A DNA stretch of 15,540 nucleotides from Nitrospinota bacterium (GTDB taxonomy: Bacteria; Nitrospinota; Nitrospinia; JACRGO01). Made by a program: the position numbers and the translations under genes. Under the pieces are notes generated by a model, which ran no database searches, was not told where the DNA came from, and saw only the letters and a list, made by a program, of their open reading frames with translations. This document shows positions 3,276-15,268 of this stretch, in pieces (within the stretch, counting starts at the first letter, position 1; each line of letters starts with the position of its first letter). Location: contig JACRGO010000205.1 of assembly GCA_016212295.1 (NCBI GenBank), forward strand, positions 1-15,540, read 5' to 3'.

Positions 3276-3282
3276 AAGGAGG
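3276..3282 (+). promoter_or_regulatory. Ribosome binding site that fixes a TTG start
   Basis: AAGGAGG lies seven bases before the TTG at 3290. It is the strongest Shine-Dalgarno on the plus strand of this window and supports a TTG start at 3290. Confidence 0.85.
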
Positions 3283-3289
3283 ATTTACT

Positions 3290-5380
3290 TTGAAAATCGT
3301 GTCTGACTTTGGAAAGTTCTTTTGGATCAAACTGGAAAACATAGGAAATAAAATATTTACCCCCGCCTATAATCCCTTCTATTTCCTTGGGGGCATTGCC
3401 TTCCACCTGCTGTATGTCCTTTTTATTACAGGGGCCTACCTCCTGTTGTTCTACGACATCTCCCCCACCGGCTCTTATAAGTCAATGGAATCCCTGATGA
3501 AGGAGCAGCCATATATCGGCGGGATCATGAGAAGCATCCATCGCTACGCCACGGACGGCTTGATGGTGACGCTCGGACTCCACCTCCTCCGGGAATTCTT
3601 CAAGTACAGGTATCGCTTTTATCGCTGGGTGGCCTGGGTTTCCGGAGTGGGGCTGTTATTCAGCATCTGGATCACCGGGTTGATCGGGTATTGGATGCTC
3701 TGGGACTCAAAGGCCCAGGTGATAGCCCTCTTCATATCGGAAATGCTGGATTACCTCATCTTCCTGAGCGAGCCCATGTCCATGAGCTTTCTGGCTCCCT
3801 CGTCCATGACCAATCTTTTCTTTTTCGTCATCCTTTTCTTCCATGTGTCAGTTCCTTCTTTTCTCCTTTTCGTGGCCTGGCTGCACTATTCAAGGACTTC
3901 CAAGCCGAGGGTCAATCCACCAGCGCTCCTTTCCATCGGCATATTGGCCCTCCTGGCCGGATTGGCGTATTTAAATCCAGCAACCATTGATGAACCGGCG
4001 AACCTTGCTAAAATCTCTGAAAAAATCAACGTTGATTGGTTTCTCATGGTCTTTTTCCCGGTGATGGCGAAAAGCGGCCCCCAAGCTGTTTGGGCTGTCA
4101 TCGGAGGCATTTTCCTTTTCCTCTTCATTCTGCCCTGGATACCTGGGCGCAAGAGGCCTCCCACTGCCGAGATCATTTTGGAAAAATGCACCGGCTGCCG
4201 CGCCTGCCGCGATGATTGCCCATACGAAGCCATAATAATTAGGAAAAGAACGGATGGAAAGCCTTATGAATTCGAGGCGAAAATTTCAGCCAACCGTTGC
4301 TCTGGATGCGGCATCTGCCTTGGGGCCTGCGATTACAACGCGGTCCGCCTGGCTTCCGTGACAAATGAGGGACTGGCGGAAGTGGTGGGCGGCATGCTTT
4401 CCTCCGTCAAAAAAACCGAGGGCAATCCCACCGTCATGGCCTTTGTTTGCGAAAAGGGGCCAAGAATAGAAGGCGTTTTGGATTCATCCGGAAGGACGGT
4501 GAAGGACCTTCCCGGCGTGAAGACGCTGAGCCTGCCTTGCTTGGGGATGATCAATCCTTCCCTGATCGAACGGGCGCTGGACGAGGAAGCCGACGGGGTT
4601 TTTATTTGCGGTTGCGGGAAAAACGATTGCTATTACCGGCTGGGCAATTTGTGGCTGGCTGACCGGTTGAGCGGCACAAGGCCGCCTTCCCTGAAGAAAC
4701 AAGTCGACCAGGCGAGGATAAGGACCTTTTTTGAACCAGCCATTCAGGGTGAGGATTTCCTGCGGGAGGCCGGAAAATTCCAGGAAGACCTGAAAACAAG
4801 GAAAATTGAGAAAAAACCGTCCTACGCTTACAGGATAGCCATGATCATTCCAGCCGTCTTGTCCCTATCCATTCCAGTGCTGCTGATCTGGGCCTTGTCC
4901 TCTGTCCCGACGTCCTTGTTTGAGCCGGGAAAAGCCATGCTGAAGGTCGGTTTCAAGCACAAAACTCCCAGAACGCATCAATGCACGGATGAAGAGGTCC
5001 GCGCCTTTCATGGCAGCATAGTCACCGAACTTCCAGGGTCAAAGAAAATAAGCAGACACATGGAATTCACTCCGAGGGGAGAGTCGCCCTACTGTGGAAA
5101 GCGCGAAAGAAACTCCGCCTACGTGGAAATTTCGCTTGATGGCAAGCCGCTATACGGCGACAACCTAAGGCCTACTGGATGGCACCGGGACGGCGCCATA
5201 TTCCTGTATCAAAGGTTCCTGGTAGAGCCTGGAGAACACAAGGTAGTGGTCAAGCTGAGAGACACGAACAGGAAAGAAGGATTTGATTATGAGTTCGAGG
5301 ACTTGATAGGCTTCGAGAAAAGCGGCGTGCGGGCCTTGACCTTCGAGAAGAGCATTAATGGCTTTAAGTGGAAGCCTTAG
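3290..5380 (+). CDS. Cytochrome b / ferredoxin / MvhD-like fusion redox protein
   Basis: A 696-residue membrane protein. Residues 30-200 match the four-helix N-terminal domain of cytochrome b/b6. Two heme-binding histidine pairs are visible, H84/H98 and H185/H199, each spaced H-x13-H. Two more helices follow at about 212-229 and 264-283. Two ferredoxin motifs come next: C300, C303, C306, C310 and C337, C340, C343, C347. Residues 380-485 resemble the MvhD/FlpD hydrogenase iron-sulfur domain, with C387, C417, C440, C442, C447 and the typical DCYYRLGN ending. A seventh helix (about 515-537) precedes a beta-rich C-terminal domain (545-696) that I do not recognise. Starting from a cytoplasmic N-terminus, the helix count puts the iron-sulfur part inside and the C-terminal domain outside. 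The likely role is electron transfer between a cytoplasmic donor, such as an Hdr-like partner, and membrane quinone. No partner gene is adjacent. The 3' end overlaps the convergent glycosylase gene. Confidence 0.85.
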   Translation: MKIVSDFGKFFWIKLENIGNKIFTPAYNPFYFLGGIAFHLLYVLFITGAYLLLFYDISPTGSYKSMESLMKEQPYIGGIMRSIHRYATDGLMVTLGLHLLREFFKYRYRFYRWVAWVSGVGLLFSIWITGLIGYWMLWDSKAQVIALFISEMLDYLIFLSEPMSMSFLAPSSMTNLFFFVILFFHVSVPSFLLFVAWLHYSRTSKPRVNPPALLSIGILALLAGLAYLNPATIDEPANLAKISEKINVDWFLMVFFPVMAKSGPQAVWAVIGGIFLFLFILPWIPGRKRPPTAEIILEKCTGCRACRDDCPYEAIIIRKRTDGKPYEFEAKISANRCSGCGICLGACDYNAVRLASVTNEGLAEVVGGMLSSVKKTEGNPTVMAFVCEKGPRIEGVLDSSGRTVKDLPGVKTLSLPCLGMINPSLIERALDEEADGVFICGCGKNDCYYRLGNLWLADRLSGTRPPSLKKQVDQARIRTFFEPAIQGEDFLREAGKFQEDLKTRKIEKKPSYAYRIAMIIPAVLSLSIPVLLIWALSSVPTSLFEPGKAMLKVGFKHKTPRTHQCTDEEVRAFHGSIVTELPGSKKISRHMEFTPRGESPYCGKRERNSAYVEISLDGKPLYGDNLRPTGWHRDGAIFLYQRFLVEPGEHKVVVKLRDTNRKEGFDYEFEDLIGFEKSGVRALTFEKSINGFKWKP

Positions 5381-8738: not shown

Positions 8739-9611
8739 TTAGCGGCTTTGCGTGAGACTTTCCTTGAAGCGAATGATGTGCTTGGAGAGTTGAAGTTCCT
8801 TGGGGGATATGCCGAGGGCCAGTCCAACCATCTGCGGGAGGTGGAAGATGGGGACGTTCAGTTCCTTGCCCACGATCTTGGCGGATTCTGGCTGATAGGG
8901 ATCGAGATTGAGGTGGCACAGGGGGCAGGGAGTGACCATGCAGTTGGCCCCGTTTTCCTTTGCCGCGCTGATGTGATTTCCGGCCATTGTGAGGGCGTTC
9001 CGCTTGCTCATCATGACGTATGGGAAGCCGCAGCATCTAAGCCTCCCTGGATAATCCACAGGCTCTCCACCCAGGGCCCTCACAAGGTTCTCTATTTCAT
9101 CGGGATTATCAGGGTCCTTCAAGCCGGAGAGTTCGCCGGGCCGCAGCGCATAGCACCCGTAAAAGGCCCCAATGCGAAGGTCCTTAAGCGGCCTCCTGAC
9201 CATTGACTTCAGCTTGTCCGCGCCTATGTCCTCGATCAACACGTTAAGCAGGTGCCGGACCTTTACCTTCCCCCTGTATTCCAGTCCGCTCCCGGCCATG
9301 GACTTGTTGGCCTCTTCCAGTTTCTTCGGGCTTTCCTTAAGTTCCTTTTGCGCCTTTTTCATGACGCCCTGGCAGGTGCCGCAGATGTTGAGTATGTCAA
9401 GCCCCATCTTCTCCGCTATCGCGAAGGTGCGGGCGTTGAGAGTGTTGGAAAGGACGGGGTTCTGTTCGGTTATAACGCCCGCGCCGCAGCAGGTGGCGTT
9501 CGGCATGGGGACCAGTTCAATGCCGAGCTTTTTCGCGAGGGCCTCGGTCGAGGCCTTCAACTCCCTAGCCGCCCCTTGCGCCACGCATCCAGGATAAAAA
9601 GCGAATTTCAT
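8739..9611 (-). CDS. sdhE: Succinate dehydrogenase/fumarate reductase subunit E, HdrB-like CCG-domain protein
   Basis: A 290-residue protein with two cysteine-rich CCG domains, as in HdrB and in SdhE of archaeal-type (class E) succinate:quinone reductases. The first domain shows C9, C41-C42 (TCCGAG), C77 and C80; the second shows C153, C193-C194 (RCCGFP), C229 and C232. In HdrB such motifs hold a non-cubane iron-sulfur cluster at the disulfide site; in SdhE they probably help pass electrons to the membrane quinone. No membrane helix is seen, so binding would be peripheral. The ATG directly follows the sdhB stop (TAAATG). This SdhE is distinct from the E. coli SdhE flavinylation factor. No SdhF-like gene follows: the repeat element begins at the stop codon. 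Confidence 0.9.
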   Translation of the reverse strand: MKFAFYPGCVAQGAARELKASTEALAKKLGIELVPMPNATCCGAGVITEQNPVLSNTLNARTFAIAEKMGLDILNICGTCQGVMKKAQKELKESPKKLEEANKSMAGSGLEYRGKVKVRHLLNVLIEDIGADKLKSMVRRPLKDLRIGAFYGCYALRPGELSGLKDPDNPDEIENLVRALGGEPVDYPGRLRCCGFPYVMMSKRNALTMAGNHISAAKENGANCMVTPCPLCHLNLDPYQPESAKIVGKELNVPIFHLPQMVGLALGISPKELQLSKHIIRFKESLTQSR

Positions 9612-10562
9612 TTATTTAGGCTCCCCGAATTCCCTGAATATTTTTTTCACCTGGTCCATGTCCTCTATTGAATGATGGATCAGAGGGGGATTTTTTCCCC
9701 TGATGAGCATCCTGATCCCAACAGGCAGGATCTCCAGGAGTCCCTTGATGTTGAAAAAACCCATTGACTTCACCGGCAGCTCGTTTTCGTTGAGCCGTCC
9801 GCTCTTGGCGATGGAGTCAACGAACGCCTTGGCGTGGCGCGCCCCGTTGTTGTTCAACACGCCGCTGTTCAGCGCAACGTTGCGAAGCTCCACGATCCTC
9901 TCCAGCGGTTTCGCGTCGGTCGGGCACCTCTGGCTGCATTCCCCGCAGTGGGTGCAGTCCCAAATCCCCTTCTCCTTGCTCAGCTTGGAGATACGCTCGA
10001 ATTGTTTTTTGTCCCGGCTGTCGCACACGAAGCGTTGGGCCTTTGCCAGGGCGGTTGGGCCGAGGTATTCCTTGTCGACTTCCTCAGAACAGCAATCCGA
10101 GAAACATGAGGCGCACATGATGCAGGTGGAGGCGGCGTCGATCTTATGAAAGTCCTCCGGGCTTTGCAGGCGTTCCACGCCGGGCGAGACCTCTTCATCG
10201 TTCACCAGCCAGGGCATGACCTTTTCCACCTTCTCCCAAAACGGCTCAAGGTCAACCGCCAGGTCCTTTATGACCGTCATGTTGCCCAGGGGTTCCAGGA
10301 CCACAAGGTTGTTTTTTATTACGTCCTTTGCCTGGGTCTTGCACGCGAGCCTTGCGTGACCGTTCACCTTCATGGCGCAGGAGCCGCAAATGGCGCTCCG
10401 GCATGACATGCGGTAAGAGAGGGTCCCGTCCTGGGTCCACTTGATGAGGTTCACGCAGTCGAGGAGGGTCGCCCCTTGCGGTACCTCCAACTCGTATTCC
10501 TGGAAGCGCGGAGCTTGGTCCTTTTGCGGGTCAAAGCGTCTTATTTTGAATTTTGTTTTCAT
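9612..10562 (-). CDS. sdhB: Succinate dehydrogenase/fumarate reductase iron-sulfur subunit
   Basis: Electron-transfer subunit of 316 residues from the chosen ATG. The [2Fe-2S] ligands are C54, C59, C62 and C74 (CRSAICGSC and later LAC). The C-terminal half has C147, C150, C153, C157 and C203, C206, C209, C213. Aligned to E. coli SdhB, C206 replaces the isoleucine that leaves the third cluster as [3Fe-4S], so a second [4Fe-4S] cluster is expected, as reported for archaeal class E enzymes. The sequence continues about 75 residues past that motif, longer than classical SdhB. An open frame reaches back to 10634, but those 24 extra residues come from a hairpin repeat. The chosen ATG gives MKTKFKIRRFDP, a normal SdhB start, preceded by an A-rich leader rather than a Shine-Dalgarno. 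Confidence 0.93.
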   Translation of the reverse strand: MKTKFKIRRFDPQKDQAPRFQEYELEVPQGATLLDCVNLIKWTQDGTLSYRMSCRSAICGSCAMKVNGHARLACKTQAKDVIKNNLVVLEPLGNMTVIKDLAVDLEPFWEKVEKVMPWLVNDEEVSPGVERLQSPEDFHKIDAASTCIMCASCFSDCCSEEVDKEYLGPTALAKAQRFVCDSRDKKQFERISKLSKEKGIWDCTHCGECSQRCPTDAKPLERIVELRNVALNSGVLNNNGARHAKAFVDSIAKSGRLNENELPVKSMGFFNIKGLLEILPVGIRMLIRGKNPPLIHHSIEDMDQVKKIFREFGEPK

Positions 10563-10574
10563 TTTTTTAATGGA

Positions 10575-10622
10575 ACGAGGCGGAGCCTCGTGGTCCTGCA
10601 TTCCCAGGCAGGAGCCTGGGAA
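10575..10622. repeat. Double-hairpin repeat between sdhA and sdhB
   Basis: Two adjacent perfect hairpins: ACGAGGC/GCCTCGT (10575-10581 and 10585-10591, 3-base loop) and TTCCCAGGC/GCCTGGGAA (10601-10609 and 10614-10622, 4-base loop). This looks like a dispersed intergenic repeat unit. In the sdh mRNA it could shield the sdhBE part from decay or set subunit ratio; that is inference. Confidence 0.65.
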
Positions 10623-10650
10623 CAAGAAAAACATTAAATTTTAATTTGTA

Positions 10651-10676
10651 AATCTCAAATTTCAAATTTCAAATCC
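10651..10676. repeat. Degenerate heptamer tract (TTCAAAT type)
   Basis: CTCAAAT, TTCAAAT, TTCAAAT in direct succession in the sdhA-sdhB gap, immediately after the sdhA stop in transcription order. Confidence 0.6.
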
Positions 10677-10683
10677 AAAATTA

Positions 10684-12402
10684 CTAATACTTTCTTTCCT
10701 CAGGCCGGTGCTTGGTGATGGCCACCGGCTTGTATTTAAGCTCAATGCCTCCGTCAGCGGCCTTGGCTGCCAGGGTGTGCTTCAGCCATTTCACGTCGTC
10801 GCGTTTCGGGAAATCCTTCCTTGCGTGGCCGCCTCGGCTCTCCTCGCGGGCCAGCGCGCCGGTGACGATGATCTCGGAAAAATCCAGCATATTGCGAAGT
10901 TCGATGGCTTCTATTATTTCAGTGTTGAAATTGGTCCCCTTGTCCATGATCTTGCCCTTGGGGAACCTGGCCTGTAGACCCTTCACTGCTTTCAGGCATT
11001 CTTCCAGCCTGGTCTTGTCGCGAAAGACCCCGCAGCGGTCCATCATGTTGTCCTTGAGCGAGTTGCGTATGTCGTTCATGGACTCCGTGCCGGGCGAGTC
11101 CAGGATGTCCGATATTTCCTTCTTCACCTTCCCGATTTCCTCTTCCTCGTTGACTGGCGGGAAGTCCTTGTTTCTGGTCTCTTCAAGGACGGTCTTGCCG
11201 GTCCTCCTGCCGAATACCAGCGCGTCAAGCAGTGAGTTGGTGCCTAGGCGGTTTGCGCCGTGGACCGACACGCAGGCGCACTCGCCCGCTGCGAAGAAGC
11301 CGGTGATCCTGGTCTTCTTGTCGTCTATAATAACGCGGCCGTCGTTGTCCGTTGGAATTCCGCCCATGGAATAATGGGCCGTGGGCTGGATGAGTATGGG
11401 CTCCTCGACCATGTCCATTCCTATGAAATCTATGCCTAGCTGCCTCACCTGCGGCAGGCGCTCCAGTATCTTCTCCCTGCCAAGGTGTCTCATGTCGAGA
11501 TGGATCGCCTTGCCGTTTGGGCCGACGCCCCGGCCTTCGTCGATCTCGGTCTGCTCGGAGCGCGAGACTATGTCCCTTGGGGCCAGCTCCATTCTGGAGG
11601 AGGCATACTTTTCCATGAAGCGCTCCCCCTTGCTGTTCAATAGATAGCCGCCTTCTCCCCTTGCGGCCTCGGAGACGAGTATGCCCTGGCCGAAGAGCCC
11701 GGTCGGGTGGAACTGCACGAACTCCATGTCCTGCAACGGCAACCCGACGCGGTAAGCGGCCATAATGCCGTCGCCGGTGCTGGCGAAGGCGTTGGATGTG
11801 ATGCTGAAGGCCCTGCCGTATCCGCCCGTTGCGAAGATGACAGAGCGGACGCGGATCACCTCTATCTTGCGGGTCTTTATGTCCATCGCCGTTATGCCGC
11901 CGCACACGCCGTCCTTGATAATCAAAGAGAGGAGATAGAATTCGGAGTAGATCGTGAGGTCCTTTTTCCGCCTCATCACCTGCTCGTGAAGGGTGTGGAG
12001 CAGGGCGTGACCCGTGCGGTCAGCCGCGTAGCATGACCGCGGCCTGGAATGTCCGCCGAAGTCCCTTTGCGCTATCTTGCCTTCCGGGGTGCGGCTGAAG
12101 GGGCATCCGAAGTGCTCCATTTCCCGGATGGTCGTGGGGGCGTCCTTGGCCATGATCTCAATCGCGTCCTGGTCCCCCAGGTAATCGCTGCCCTTGACGG
12201 TGTCGAACATGTGAAGTTCCCAGTTATCGTCCTTGGCTTCATTCGCCAGGGACGCGGCGACCCCGCCCTGGGCCGCGCCGGAATGGGAGCGGGAGGGATA
12301 CACCTTGGTGACTATGGCGGTGTTGAGTTCGCCGCAAACCTCAAGGGCGGCGCGCATTCCCGCCAGGCCTGATCCTACTATGACAACGTCGTGTTGAAGC
12401 AT
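10684..12402 (-). CDS. sdhA: Succinate dehydrogenase/fumarate reductase flavoprotein subunit
   Basis: Catalytic subunit of 572 residues, normal length. It oxidises succinate to fumarate, or the reverse, on covalently bound FAD at the cytoplasmic face. Visible features: dinucleotide-binding GSGLAG (10-15), the flavin-linking His40 in [11 protein letters not shown], the substrate loop FHPTG (231-235), the catalytic arginine region RDIVSR (276-281), [13 protein letters not shown] (340-352) with substrate-binding H343, and the FAD-binding [14 protein letters not shown] (381-394). Presence of H40 argues for a true quinone-linked enzyme rather than a soluble fumarate reductase or L-aspartate oxidase. 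The ATG follows an A-rich leader without Shine-Dalgarno. sdhB follows after a repeat-filled gap of about 120 bases. Confidence 0.98.
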
Positions 12403-12438: not shown

Positions 12439-12729
12439 TCATGCGGGTATGGCTAGTTTTTCTACTTCTTTAAGGTTAAATCTCTTTCTTGCCAGCCACA
12501 AATTGTAATTGTCTTGCATTATCAGCCAGCTTTCCGGCGACCGGCCTAATGTTTTGGAGAGACGCAAGGCCATCTCCGGCGTAATTTTACCTTGACCGTT
12601 GATCAAACGATTAAAGGTTGAAGGCGACACCTTCAACTTCTCGGCCACCATGCGGTAACTGATGCAATAAGGATCAAGAAAAACTTCCTTGATGAATTCT
12701 CCCGGATGGGGTGGATTGAACATACTCAT
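12439..12729 (-). CDS. higA: HigA-type antitoxin, XRE family
   Basis: DNA-binding antitoxin of 96 residues. The opening FNPPHPGEFIKE is the hallmark of the HigA/VapI branch. The helix-turn-helix spans about residues 24-46 (RMVAEKLKVSPSTFNRLING), followed by a helix with PEMALRLSKTLGRSPESWL. It should bind HigB and repress the operon. The ATG shares one base with the higB stop (TGATG), so translation is coupled. A second ATG two codons on (MSMF) is an alternative start. It ends 36 bases before sdhA. Confidence 0.93.
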   Translation of the reverse strand: MSMFNPPHPGEFIKEVFLDPYCISYRMVAEKLKVSPSTFNRLINGQGKITPEMALRLSKTLGRSPESWLIMQDNYNLWLARKRFNLKEVEKLAIPA

Positions 12730-13007
12730 CAGTGGTAATCCTCATAATCAACTAAATAGGCATTGCCATTTTCAAACATGAAAATCATCCGCCAATTTTT
12801 ATCGACGTCTATTGCCCAAAAATCTTTTTTGTCTCCCTTCAAGGGATGAAGCCGATATCCAGGCAAATCCATGTCCTCAATACAAGTCGCGGTTTCCAGC
12901 GCGGTCAGTTGCATTCGCAATTTTTTGCGATGCTTGCCTTGAATGCCCGCTGTGCTGCCTGTTTCATGGAATTTTCTAAGTCCCTTGTGCTTGAACGACT
13001 TAATCAT
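12729..13007 (-). CDS. higB: HigB-type toxin, RelE superfamily mRNA interferase
   Basis: Toxin of 92 residues, full family length. The family pattern is intact: IKSFKHKGLRKFHETG at the start, LPGYRLHPLKGDKKDFWAIDV in the middle and NWRMIFMFENGNAYLVDYEDYH at the end. Relatives cleave mRNA on the ribosome and are neutralised by HigA. Toxin-before-antitoxin order is normal for higBA. No Shine-Dalgarno precedes the ATG, and a consensus -10 lies only five bases before it, so translation may be leaderless. The pair sits in an accessory patch between the fumarase and sdh genes. Confidence 0.94.
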   Translation of the reverse strand: MIKSFKHKGLRKFHETGSTAGIQGKHRKKLRMQLTALETATCIEDMDLPGYRLHPLKGDKKDFWAIDVDKNWRMIFMFENGNAYLVDYEDYH

Positions 13008-13715: not shown

Positions 13716-14276
13716 TTATTCGTTGACCGCGTACAATTTCTTCCCCATCTGGTAAAGGTCGTTTCCCTCCACGTCGTTGACCACCACCACCTCGAAGTCC
13801 TCCACCTCCATACGCCGCACGGCTTCGGGTCCAAGGTCTTCGTAGGCCACGAGGTCCACCTTTTTAATGCACCTGGCGATGAGCGCCCCGGCCCCGCCTA
13901 TGGCCGCGAAGTATACGCAGCCATGCTTGCAGCCGGCCTCCACGACCTCTTTCGCGCGGTTTCCCTTGCCGATCATTCCTCGCATCCCGACTTCCATGAG
14001 CCTCGGCGCATACTGGTCCATCCTGTAGCTTGTGGTAGGACCGGCCGAGCCCACCACCTGCCCAGGCTTGGCAGGCGCCGGACCAACATAATATATGATT
14101 TGGCCCTTGATATCAAAGGGCAGCGCCTTCCCCTCGTCCAGCAGGGCCACAAGCCGTTTGTGGGCCGCGTCGCGGGCAGTGTATATGGCCCCGTTCAGAA
14201 GAACGCGGTCCCCGGCCCTGAGCCTTTTTACATCTTCTTCCTTAAGTGGAGTTGTGAGCCGGACAGGTTCGGACAT
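13716..14276 (-). CDS. Fumarate hydratase class I, beta subunit
   Basis: Beta subunit, 186 residues, of the two-subunit iron-sulfur fumarase/tartrate dehydratase family, catalysing fumarate to malate. The usual sequence landmarks are present: LRAGDRVLLNGAIYTARDAAHKR (19-41), YYVGPAP (62-68), GSAGPTTSYRMDQYAP (76-91), MIGKG (101-105) and YFAAIGGAGAL (122-132). The length is normal for the separate C-terminal subunit. It follows the alpha gene after a repeat-filled gap of about 150 bases. The ATG follows a run of A without Shine-Dalgarno. Sequence alone does not fully separate fumarase from L(+)-tartrate dehydratase, but the neighbouring sdh genes favour fumarase. Confidence 0.95.
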   Translation of the reverse strand: MSEPVRLTTPLKEEDVKRLRAGDRVLLNGAIYTARDAAHKRLVALLDEGKALPFDIKGQIIYYVGPAPAKPGQVVGSAGPTTSYRMDQYAPRLMEVGMRGMIGKGNRAKEVVEAGCKHGCVYFAAIGGAGALIARCIKKVDLVAYEDLGPEAVRRMEVEDFEVVVVNDVEGNDLYQMGKKLYAVNE

Positions 14277-14288
14277 TTTTTTTATTTT

Positions 14289-14320
14289 AGATTTACGATT
14301 TCAGATTTCAGATTTGAAAT
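14289..14320. repeat. Degenerate heptamer tract (AGATTTC type)
   Basis: AGATTTA, CGATTTC, AGATTTC, AGATTTG in succession, just upstream of the fumarase beta start on the minus strand. Confidence 0.6.
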
Positions 14321-14389
14321 ACAGCCAAAATTATTTTTGTTGTAATATCCATGCAGCCAGTGAAATCCGTTGTTAATTTTTTTTAAAAT

Positions 14390-14431
14390 CTCAAATCTCA
14401 AATTTTAAATCTTAAATCTTAAATCTTAAAT
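14390..14431. repeat. Six tandem heptamers (CTTAAAT type)
   Basis: Six consecutive 7-bp units: CTCAAAT, CTCAAAT, TTTAAAT and three CTTAAAT. It ends at the stop codon of the fumarase alpha gene and is the cleanest heptamer tract in the window. Confidence 0.75.
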
Positions 14432-15268
14432 TGTTATTTCCTTATGCCTGCTTGCGTGGCAGCAGATATTCACCGCCACTGGAAGTTGCGCGATGTGGCA
14501 GGGAAACTTCTCTATATGCACGGCCATTGCGTAACAACGTCCCCCAAGACCTTGCGGTCCCATGCCCAGATTATTGATCCGGCGCAGGACCCTCCTCTCG
14601 CTTGCGTCCAGTTCCGGGTCAGGATTAACGGACCCGATCTTACGAAAGAGGGCGCGCCTGGCTAGTATGGCAACCTTTTCTGACGTGCCGCCTATCCCCA
14701 CACCGACCAAAACCGGGGGACACGGATTCGACCCAGCCTCGTTGGCCCGCTGCACCACGAAATCCTCTATCCCCTTCAACCCTTCCGAGGGCTTCAGCAT
14801 CGTGACCCTGGACATGTTCTCGCTCCCTCCCCCCTTTGGGGCCATGATGATCTTGATCTTGTCCCCAGGGACTATGTCAGTTATCACCACAGCCGGGGTG
14901 TTGTCCGTGGTGTTTTTCCGTGTAAAGGGATCGCAGATGGATTTGCGAAGATAGCCTTCCGTGTATCCCTGCCTGACCCCCTCGTTCACCGCGTCTTCCA
15001 GGAGGGCGCCTTCAATGCGCGCGTCCTGCCCCACCTCCACGTACACCACTGCGAAGCCTGTGTCCTGGCAGATGGGGACCTGTTCATTGGCGGAGATTTC
15101 GGCGTTCTTGAGGAGGGCCTTGAGTATGGATTTCCCGGTCGGGGACTCACCCTCGTCCTCCATGGCCCTGCGGAACGCCTGAAGCACGTCCTCTCCAAGG
15201 TAATAATTGGTGTCCATGGAGAGCCGCTTCACAGCCTCAGTTATTTCTCTGGATTGAATAGTTCGCAA
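14426..15268 (-). CDS. Fumarate hydratase class I, alpha subunit
   Basis: Alpha subunit of 280 residues, normal length, carrying the [4Fe-4S] cluster of class I fumarase. The likely ligands are C67 (CQDTG), C183 (NPCPP) and C270 (NICCHASRH). Other landmarks are APKGGGSENMS (143-153), VGVGIGGTSEK (188-198) and GPQGLGG (237-243). The start is a TTG: it gives MRTIQSREITEAVKRL, which fits the usual family N-terminus, whereas the next ATG (MDTNYYL) would remove a conserved helix. It is the first gene of the minus-strand TCA block. No clear Shine-Dalgarno is seen. The last two codons overlap the start of the heptamer tract. Confidence 0.95.
   Translation of the reverse strand: MRTIQSREITEAVKRLSMDTNYYLGEDVLQAFRRAMEDEGESPTGKSILKALLKNAEISANEQVPICQDTGFAVVYVEVGQDARIEGALLEDAVNEGVRQGYTEGYLRKSICDPFTRKNTTDNTPAVVITDIVPGDKIKIIMAPKGGGSENMSRVTMLKPSEGLKGIEDFVVQRANEAGSNPCPPVLVGVGIGGTSEKVAILARRALFRKIGSVNPDPELDASERRVLRRINNLGMGPQGLGGRCYAMAVHIEKFPCHIAQLPVAVNICCHASRHKEITI

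Follow-up and report, generated by a model that had tools for sequence, protein, structure and literature searches.

The closest described analogues of the protein reported here are the anammox Rieske/cytochrome b complexes with an NAD(P) oxidoreductase (Kuste4569-4574 and Kustd1480-1485; PMC12954380), for which electron bifurcation of the kind considered below has been proposed. They combine a b6-like cytochrome b, a subunit IV-like part and an n-side Fe-S chain leading toward the NAD(P) module, with a proposed coupling to nitrogen-oxide reduction; their Rieske and multiheme c subunits are encoded as separate genes. A four-helix core and E and F helices with a Qo loop are also features of bc1 and b6f complexes. 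The C-terminal part of HdrA2 consists of two [4Fe-4S] motifs and, after them, an MvhD domain, and a related b core and E-F helices occur in ExtP and ExtQ of the Geobacter ext cluster (PMC5877670). The enzyme with which the present family is associated is eNOR, a heme-copper enzyme of the ba3-a1 type, described in the literature as a two-subunit enzyme with SCO and marked by a glutamine in place of the oxidase tyrosine (PMC8756737).

The window analysed is a stretch of 15,540 nucleotides from a Nitrospinota bacterium (contig JACRGO010000205.1 of assembly GCA_016212295.1, forward strand). Its gene at 3290..5380 (+), delimited by the ORF list, Pfam and NCBIfam, encodes a cytochrome b/ferredoxin/FlpD protein of 696 aa; read directly, a Shine-Dalgarno-like AAGGAGG (3276..3282, +) lies 7 bases 5' of the TTG start. 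The protein begins with a b6-like core of four helices (residues 29-201; 3374..3892, +) carrying the heme ligands H84/H98 and H185/H199, followed by the subunit IV-like helices E and F (residues 212-283; 3923..4138, +) with D-W-F (residues 249-251; 4034..4042, +) at the position of PEWY in the Qo site. Two [4Fe-4S] ferredoxin motifs (residues 293-356; 4166..4357, +), an FlpD/MvhD domain (residues 380-502; 4427..4795, +), a seventh transmembrane helix (residues 519-538; 4844..4903, +) and a periplasmic beta-sandwich domain (residues 549-696; 4934..5377, +) complete the chain.

Pfam assigns Cytochrome_B to residues 24-200 (E 1e-11), two Fer4 domains within 294-351 and FlpD to 382-502 (E 2e-15; 57 bits against a cut-off of 22), with no match C-terminal of residue 502. 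In NCBIfam the cytochrome b part matches ExtP (E 1e-23) and residues 219-290 match ExtQ (E 1e-5). However, these scores fall far under the curated cut-offs (84/290 and 26/150 bits, respectively), and ExtP and ExtQ are encoded by separate genes with other neighbours. Residues 290-503 match the C-terminal Fd2-MvhD part of HdrA2 (E 2e-29); unlike HdrA2, the 696-aa chain lacks the HdrA flavin domain (Pfam) and has a cytochrome b attached. The parts named in the original prediction, which was made from the sequence alone (a cytochrome b core, two [4Fe-4S] motifs, an MvhD-like domain and a C-terminal domain), are all present, supporting its view of a single chain joining a quinone-type cytochrome b to a ferredoxin/MvhD module.

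An AlphaFold2 model of the whole protein, built from 38 homologues (pLDDT 85.8), places helices at residues 29-53, 74-104, 113-136, 175-201, 212-228, 256-283 and 519-538 and a beta-sandwich at the C-terminus. The positive charges lie on loops 104-113 and 202-211, so the Fe-S part is assigned to the cytoplasmic side of the membrane and the C-terminus to the periplasmic side. Model and loop charges agree with the arrangement first counted by eye (six helices, Fe-S part inside, one helix, C-terminus outside), so that the C-terminal domain is indeed placed where contact with a periplasmic partner is possible. The model superimposes on bc1 cytochrome b over ~260 residues (Z 20-24), and many of the alignments extend to residues 541-545, with helix 7 at the place of helix G. 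In profile comparison, residues 28-291 hit cytochrome b6 (E 4e-30) and, as a distinct hit, b6f subunit IV. A profile restricted to residues 205-291 matches subunit IV (E 2.4e-6) as well as bc1 cytochrome b, PEWY lying opposite xDW(F/Y). Together with the position of helix 7, these matches suggest that the chain corresponds to b6 plus subunit IV with an F-G insertion: the Fe-S/FlpD module reads as an addition to the cytoplasmic loop that joins helix F to helix G, and helix 7 is, in the model, the equivalent of helix G. The cytochrome b had been seen as a replacement membrane anchor; it appears to be more than that, since the E-F region with its Qo-like loop is kept. The cysteine that covalently binds heme cN in b6 (Cys35) is absent, its position being occupied by F32 in the window protein and by H or Y in relatives. 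At L003:1420-2800 (own genome C59), a separate b6-like cytochrome b and a subunit IV-like gene carry PEWF, so the DWF form is peculiar to the cytochrome b-Fd-FlpD family. Modelled alone, the C-terminal domain reaches a pLDDT of 88; the known folds that it resembles are just generic, uninformative Ig-like beta-sandwiches, the best being the HGSNAT luminal domain (Z 8.7, 94 residues).

The protein belongs to a genuine family with members in hundreds of genomes of several phyla, and a profile scan retrieves 558 matching stretches that encode relatives. The best 78 loci of these 558, over which the neighbourhood counts below were taken unless another number is given, come from Nitrospinota, Nitrospirota, deltaproteobacterial MAGs, Gamma-, Alpha- and Zetaproteobacteria, Gallionella and others. 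The nearest named relative is from a Nitrospinia MAG, the same genome encodes a 34% paralogue, and six more genomes of the class contain relatives. Some relatives are full chains; in many others a cytochrome b-Fd-FlpD gene of 500-560 aa is directly followed by a separate gene for the last helix and the periplasmic domain. The single-chain layout is therefore real but one of two. Its one-chain form in many unrelated genomes, together with the paralogue, rules out a fusion of two genes by sequencing error.

Among 89 Fd-FlpD homologues, the four heme histidines, D249 and W250 (89/89), the eight ferredoxin cysteines and four FlpD cysteines are invariant wherever covered. The heme ligands form two H-x13-H pairs, as in the cytochrome b of Rieske/b complexes, and the histidines first picked out from the sequence are kept in every homologue that covers them. 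Among the cysteines assigned to the MvhD-like domain at the same time, C387, C417, C442 and C447 hold, whereas C440 is not conserved. The C-terminal domains usually conserve two cysteines jointly, and both are missing in one Nitrospinota subgroup.

In the window the genes around it are unrelated: mreB and mreC precede the cytochrome b-Fd-FlpD gene, and a convergent HhH-GPD DNA glycosylase gene follows it. Further along, 8739-12402 (-) encodes SdhA, SdhB and a CCG-domain anchor (HdrB-like, SdhE-type) that replaces the heme anchor, 12439-13007 (-) a HigB-like toxin with an HTH antitoxin, and 13716-15268 the alpha and beta subunits of fumarase. In relatives, the typical gene order is CuA subunit II, eNOR subunit I, CtaB, SCO and the cytochrome b-Fd-FlpD gene. 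eNOR subunit I is present in 44/78 loci, CuA-type subunit II in 38/78, CtaB in 29/78 and SCO in 57/78, in 40 of them immediately 5' of the cytochrome b-Fd-FlpD gene; the median gap to eNOR is 1.65 kb, many of the 78 loci being cut by contig ends. The identity of the partner rests on the diagnostic glutamine and the CuA subunit II: all 44 eNOR genes have H-x-x-Q-Q, with Gln for the active-site Tyr, and the CuB His-His wherever covered. Apparent in-frame stops in two eNOR genes are natural gene ends. Further neighbours include hemerythrin (16 loci), rhodanese (13), NuoF (12) and NirS (9), and the denitrification genes near the loci are NirS, NirK, NosR and NapC. The placement among the CtaB and SCO assembly genes might suggest a non-catalytic assembly or redox-sensing factor for eNOR. 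We regard this as very unlikely, since heme and cluster ligands that are all invariant in 89 sequences are unneeded in assembly factors.

The gene families that recur in the loci of relatives do not include Rieske, and the one Rieske of the window genome is found on another contig; cytochrome c is not part of the core operon of relatives. As no Rieske is encoded with it, the protein is classed as a relative, not a member, of the Rieske/b complexes. The original prediction expected an Hdr/Qmo-like module in which the MvhD domain passes electrons to HdrA. Residues 290-503 do resemble the end of HdrA2, and the genome has HdrA and MvhD genes at other places. However, BLAST finds no HdrA-like, HdrB/CCG-like or Qmo neighbour in 80 loci, a search that could miss distant homologues, and the partner that tracks the gene is eNOR, which makes an Hdr-type setting hardly credible.

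Several additional arrangements were observed. A plasmid of the alphaproteobacterial Defluviimonas (L129; NZ_CP156080.1 14059-20598) bears a complete eNOR cassette including the cytochrome b-Fd-FlpD gene, under the RefSeq names 'cbb3-type cytochrome c oxidase subunit I', heme o synthase, SCO family, 'cytochrome b N-terminal domain-containing protein', hypothetical and hemerythrin. At L118:2860-7865 (own genome C98) a second eNOR-like gene (538 aa, HSSQQ) clusters with a further protein of the COX1 family and two genes for CuA-type subunit II. In 35/78 loci the family has beside it a second heme-copper oxidase-like protein of ~450-490 aa, for example at L119:4963-6402 (own genome C185), L037:13150-14625 and L066:8160-9569. 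It keeps the three heme histidines and the helix VI histidine, but the CuB His-His is nearly always missing and most copies have Phe at the Tyr position, so this protein is probably CuB-less. A weakly PHP-like protein with a hydrophobic N-terminus (L025:5067-6047 and L119:6399-7325) has the cytochrome b-Fd-FlpD gene as its neighbour in one genome; in the second genome its neighbour is the CuB-less oxidase.

The association with eNOR extends to whole genomes. Of 831 genomes drawn from three groups, 63 have eNOR, 65 have the cytochrome b-Fd-FlpD gene and 62 have both. In the window's class (Nitrospinota-like; a phylum-level search returns the same 77 genomes) each is found in 7/77, the identical seven genomes. 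In Gammaproteobacteria the counts are 33/369 for eNOR and 34/369 for the cytochrome b-Fd-FlpD gene, 32 genomes having both (p 1e-42, inflated by genome relatedness), and in Alphaproteobacteria 23/385 and 24/385, with 23 in common. The pattern thus recurs in all three groups, to which these figures apply. The window gene, a 60% relative, L027 and L045 are not beside eNOR. Contig 3 of the window genome nevertheless carries genes for subunit II, subunit I, CtaB and SCO in an eNOR operon whose subunit I has the diagnostic glutamine and the intact CuB His-His, and of 12 carriers from mixed groups, several with the gene apart from eNOR, 11 have a full eNOR. It is conceivable that the protein is a cytosolic-reductant:quinone oxidoreductase whose only tie to eNOR is shared regulation and which provides quinol when the cells denitrify, as these four detached genes and the NuoF adjoining some copies might indicate. 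Such a role seems improbable: near one-to-one co-occurrence in three groups exceeds what shared regulation needs, and complex I could serve the same organisms.

Taken from sequence, operon and co-occurrence, the protein is very probably a redox partner of eNOR of one kind or another. The invariance of the Qo-like loop suggests quinol chemistry near the periplasm and that of the Fe-S/FlpD module a cytosolic partner, and bifurcation is proposed because this scheme uses every part. Quinol would be oxidised at the Qo-like site on the periplasmic side; the first electron would pass to the CuA centre of eNOR and on to NO, and the second through heme bL, heme bH and the Fe-S clusters to FlpD. From there it may reach a flavoprotein in the cytosol, which in genomes that encode one would resemble NuoF or a ferredoxin-NAD reductase; the periplasmic domain would be the docking site for eNOR subunit II. 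On this view the system would be related to the electron-bifurcating bc complexes but Rieske-free, and powered by NO reduction. As a whole, including its direction, we hold this reading of a dedicated eNOR partner tentatively, at somewhat short of an even chance. It is possible, if rather doubtful, that NO reduction by such a Rieske-free bifurcating cytochrome b complex drives electrons via Fe-S/FlpD onto a low-potential cytosolic carrier, turning NO respiration into reducing power for chemolithotrophs.

Several points stand against the bifurcating scheme. Since the core operon has no Rieske or cytochrome c, direct docking of CuA at the Qo site is unproven, and in published accounts eNOR accepts electrons from cytochrome c (PMC8879329). 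If the quinone is ubiquinone, an acceptor at the level of CuA alone would leave the second electron too weakly reducing for NAD(P)+, and the substitution of Asp for the Qo Glu may reduce or otherwise change quinol oxidation. The window gene lies apart from eNOR, and proteobacterial operons mostly contain no NAD(P)H module.

Where such modules occur, they also bear on the direction of electron flow. Besides NuoF at 12 loci, Gallionella-type paralogues (L066:5699-7636, L063, L076, L086, L088, L091 and L099) have a Fer2 and FAD/NAD reductase part in place of Fd-FlpD on the same cytochrome b core, with the four histidines and DW kept. Both observations point to NAD(P)H. Modules of the NuoF and ferredoxin-NAD reductase types usually oxidise NAD(P)H, which favours the main rival of the bifurcating scheme, namely flow from NAD(P)H or ferredoxin via a flavoprotein to FlpD, [4Fe-4S], bH, bL and eNOR. 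The protein would then form part of an NADH:NO oxidoreductase, and complexes I and III would be bypassed. Such flow is energetically workable with both ubiquinone and menaquinone and suits ubiquinone users better than bifurcation, and the nearby hemerythrin genes could fit detoxification. However, it leaves the invariance of the Qo-like loop unexplained, outward electron flow would dissipate membrane potential, and the same lack of an NAD(P)H module in most proteobacterial operons counts against it; we consider it possible but unlikely.

Set against the described systems, the family to which the window protein belongs differs from the anammox complexes in having no Rieske in the operon, Fe-S/FlpD within the b chain and eNOR as the linked enzyme. 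It departs from bc1/b6f in having xDW(F/Y) for PEWY, Fe-S/FlpD before helix G and a beta-sandwich after it, no adjacent Rieske or c1/f gene and no cysteine at the heme-cN position. In the literature on eNOR, its CuA subunit and SCO, leaving aside the figures of eNOR gene clusters in Murali et al. (PNAS 2024), no mention of a cytochrome b-Fd-FlpD protein was found. The module thus apparently is undescribed, as originally supposed, and the novelty of its association with eNOR is provisional.

eNOR is an alternative NO reductase that is often misnamed cytochrome oxidase in annotation, and the cytochrome b-Fd-FlpD gene provides a second marker gene for it. The existence of bc-type cores bearing Fd-FlpD or a ferredoxin-NAD reductase indicates that such a core can carry exchangeable cytoplasmic modules. 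With a near-obligate partner whose cofactor ligands are invariant and which combines a quinone-type core with a cytosolic Fe-S exit, the electron supply of eNOR becomes directly testable. eNOR converts nitric oxide to nitrous oxide, a greenhouse gas, and such a partner would link NO reduction, and hence N2O formation, to cytosolic redox balance in denitrifying and in iron- or sulfur-oxidising bacteria.
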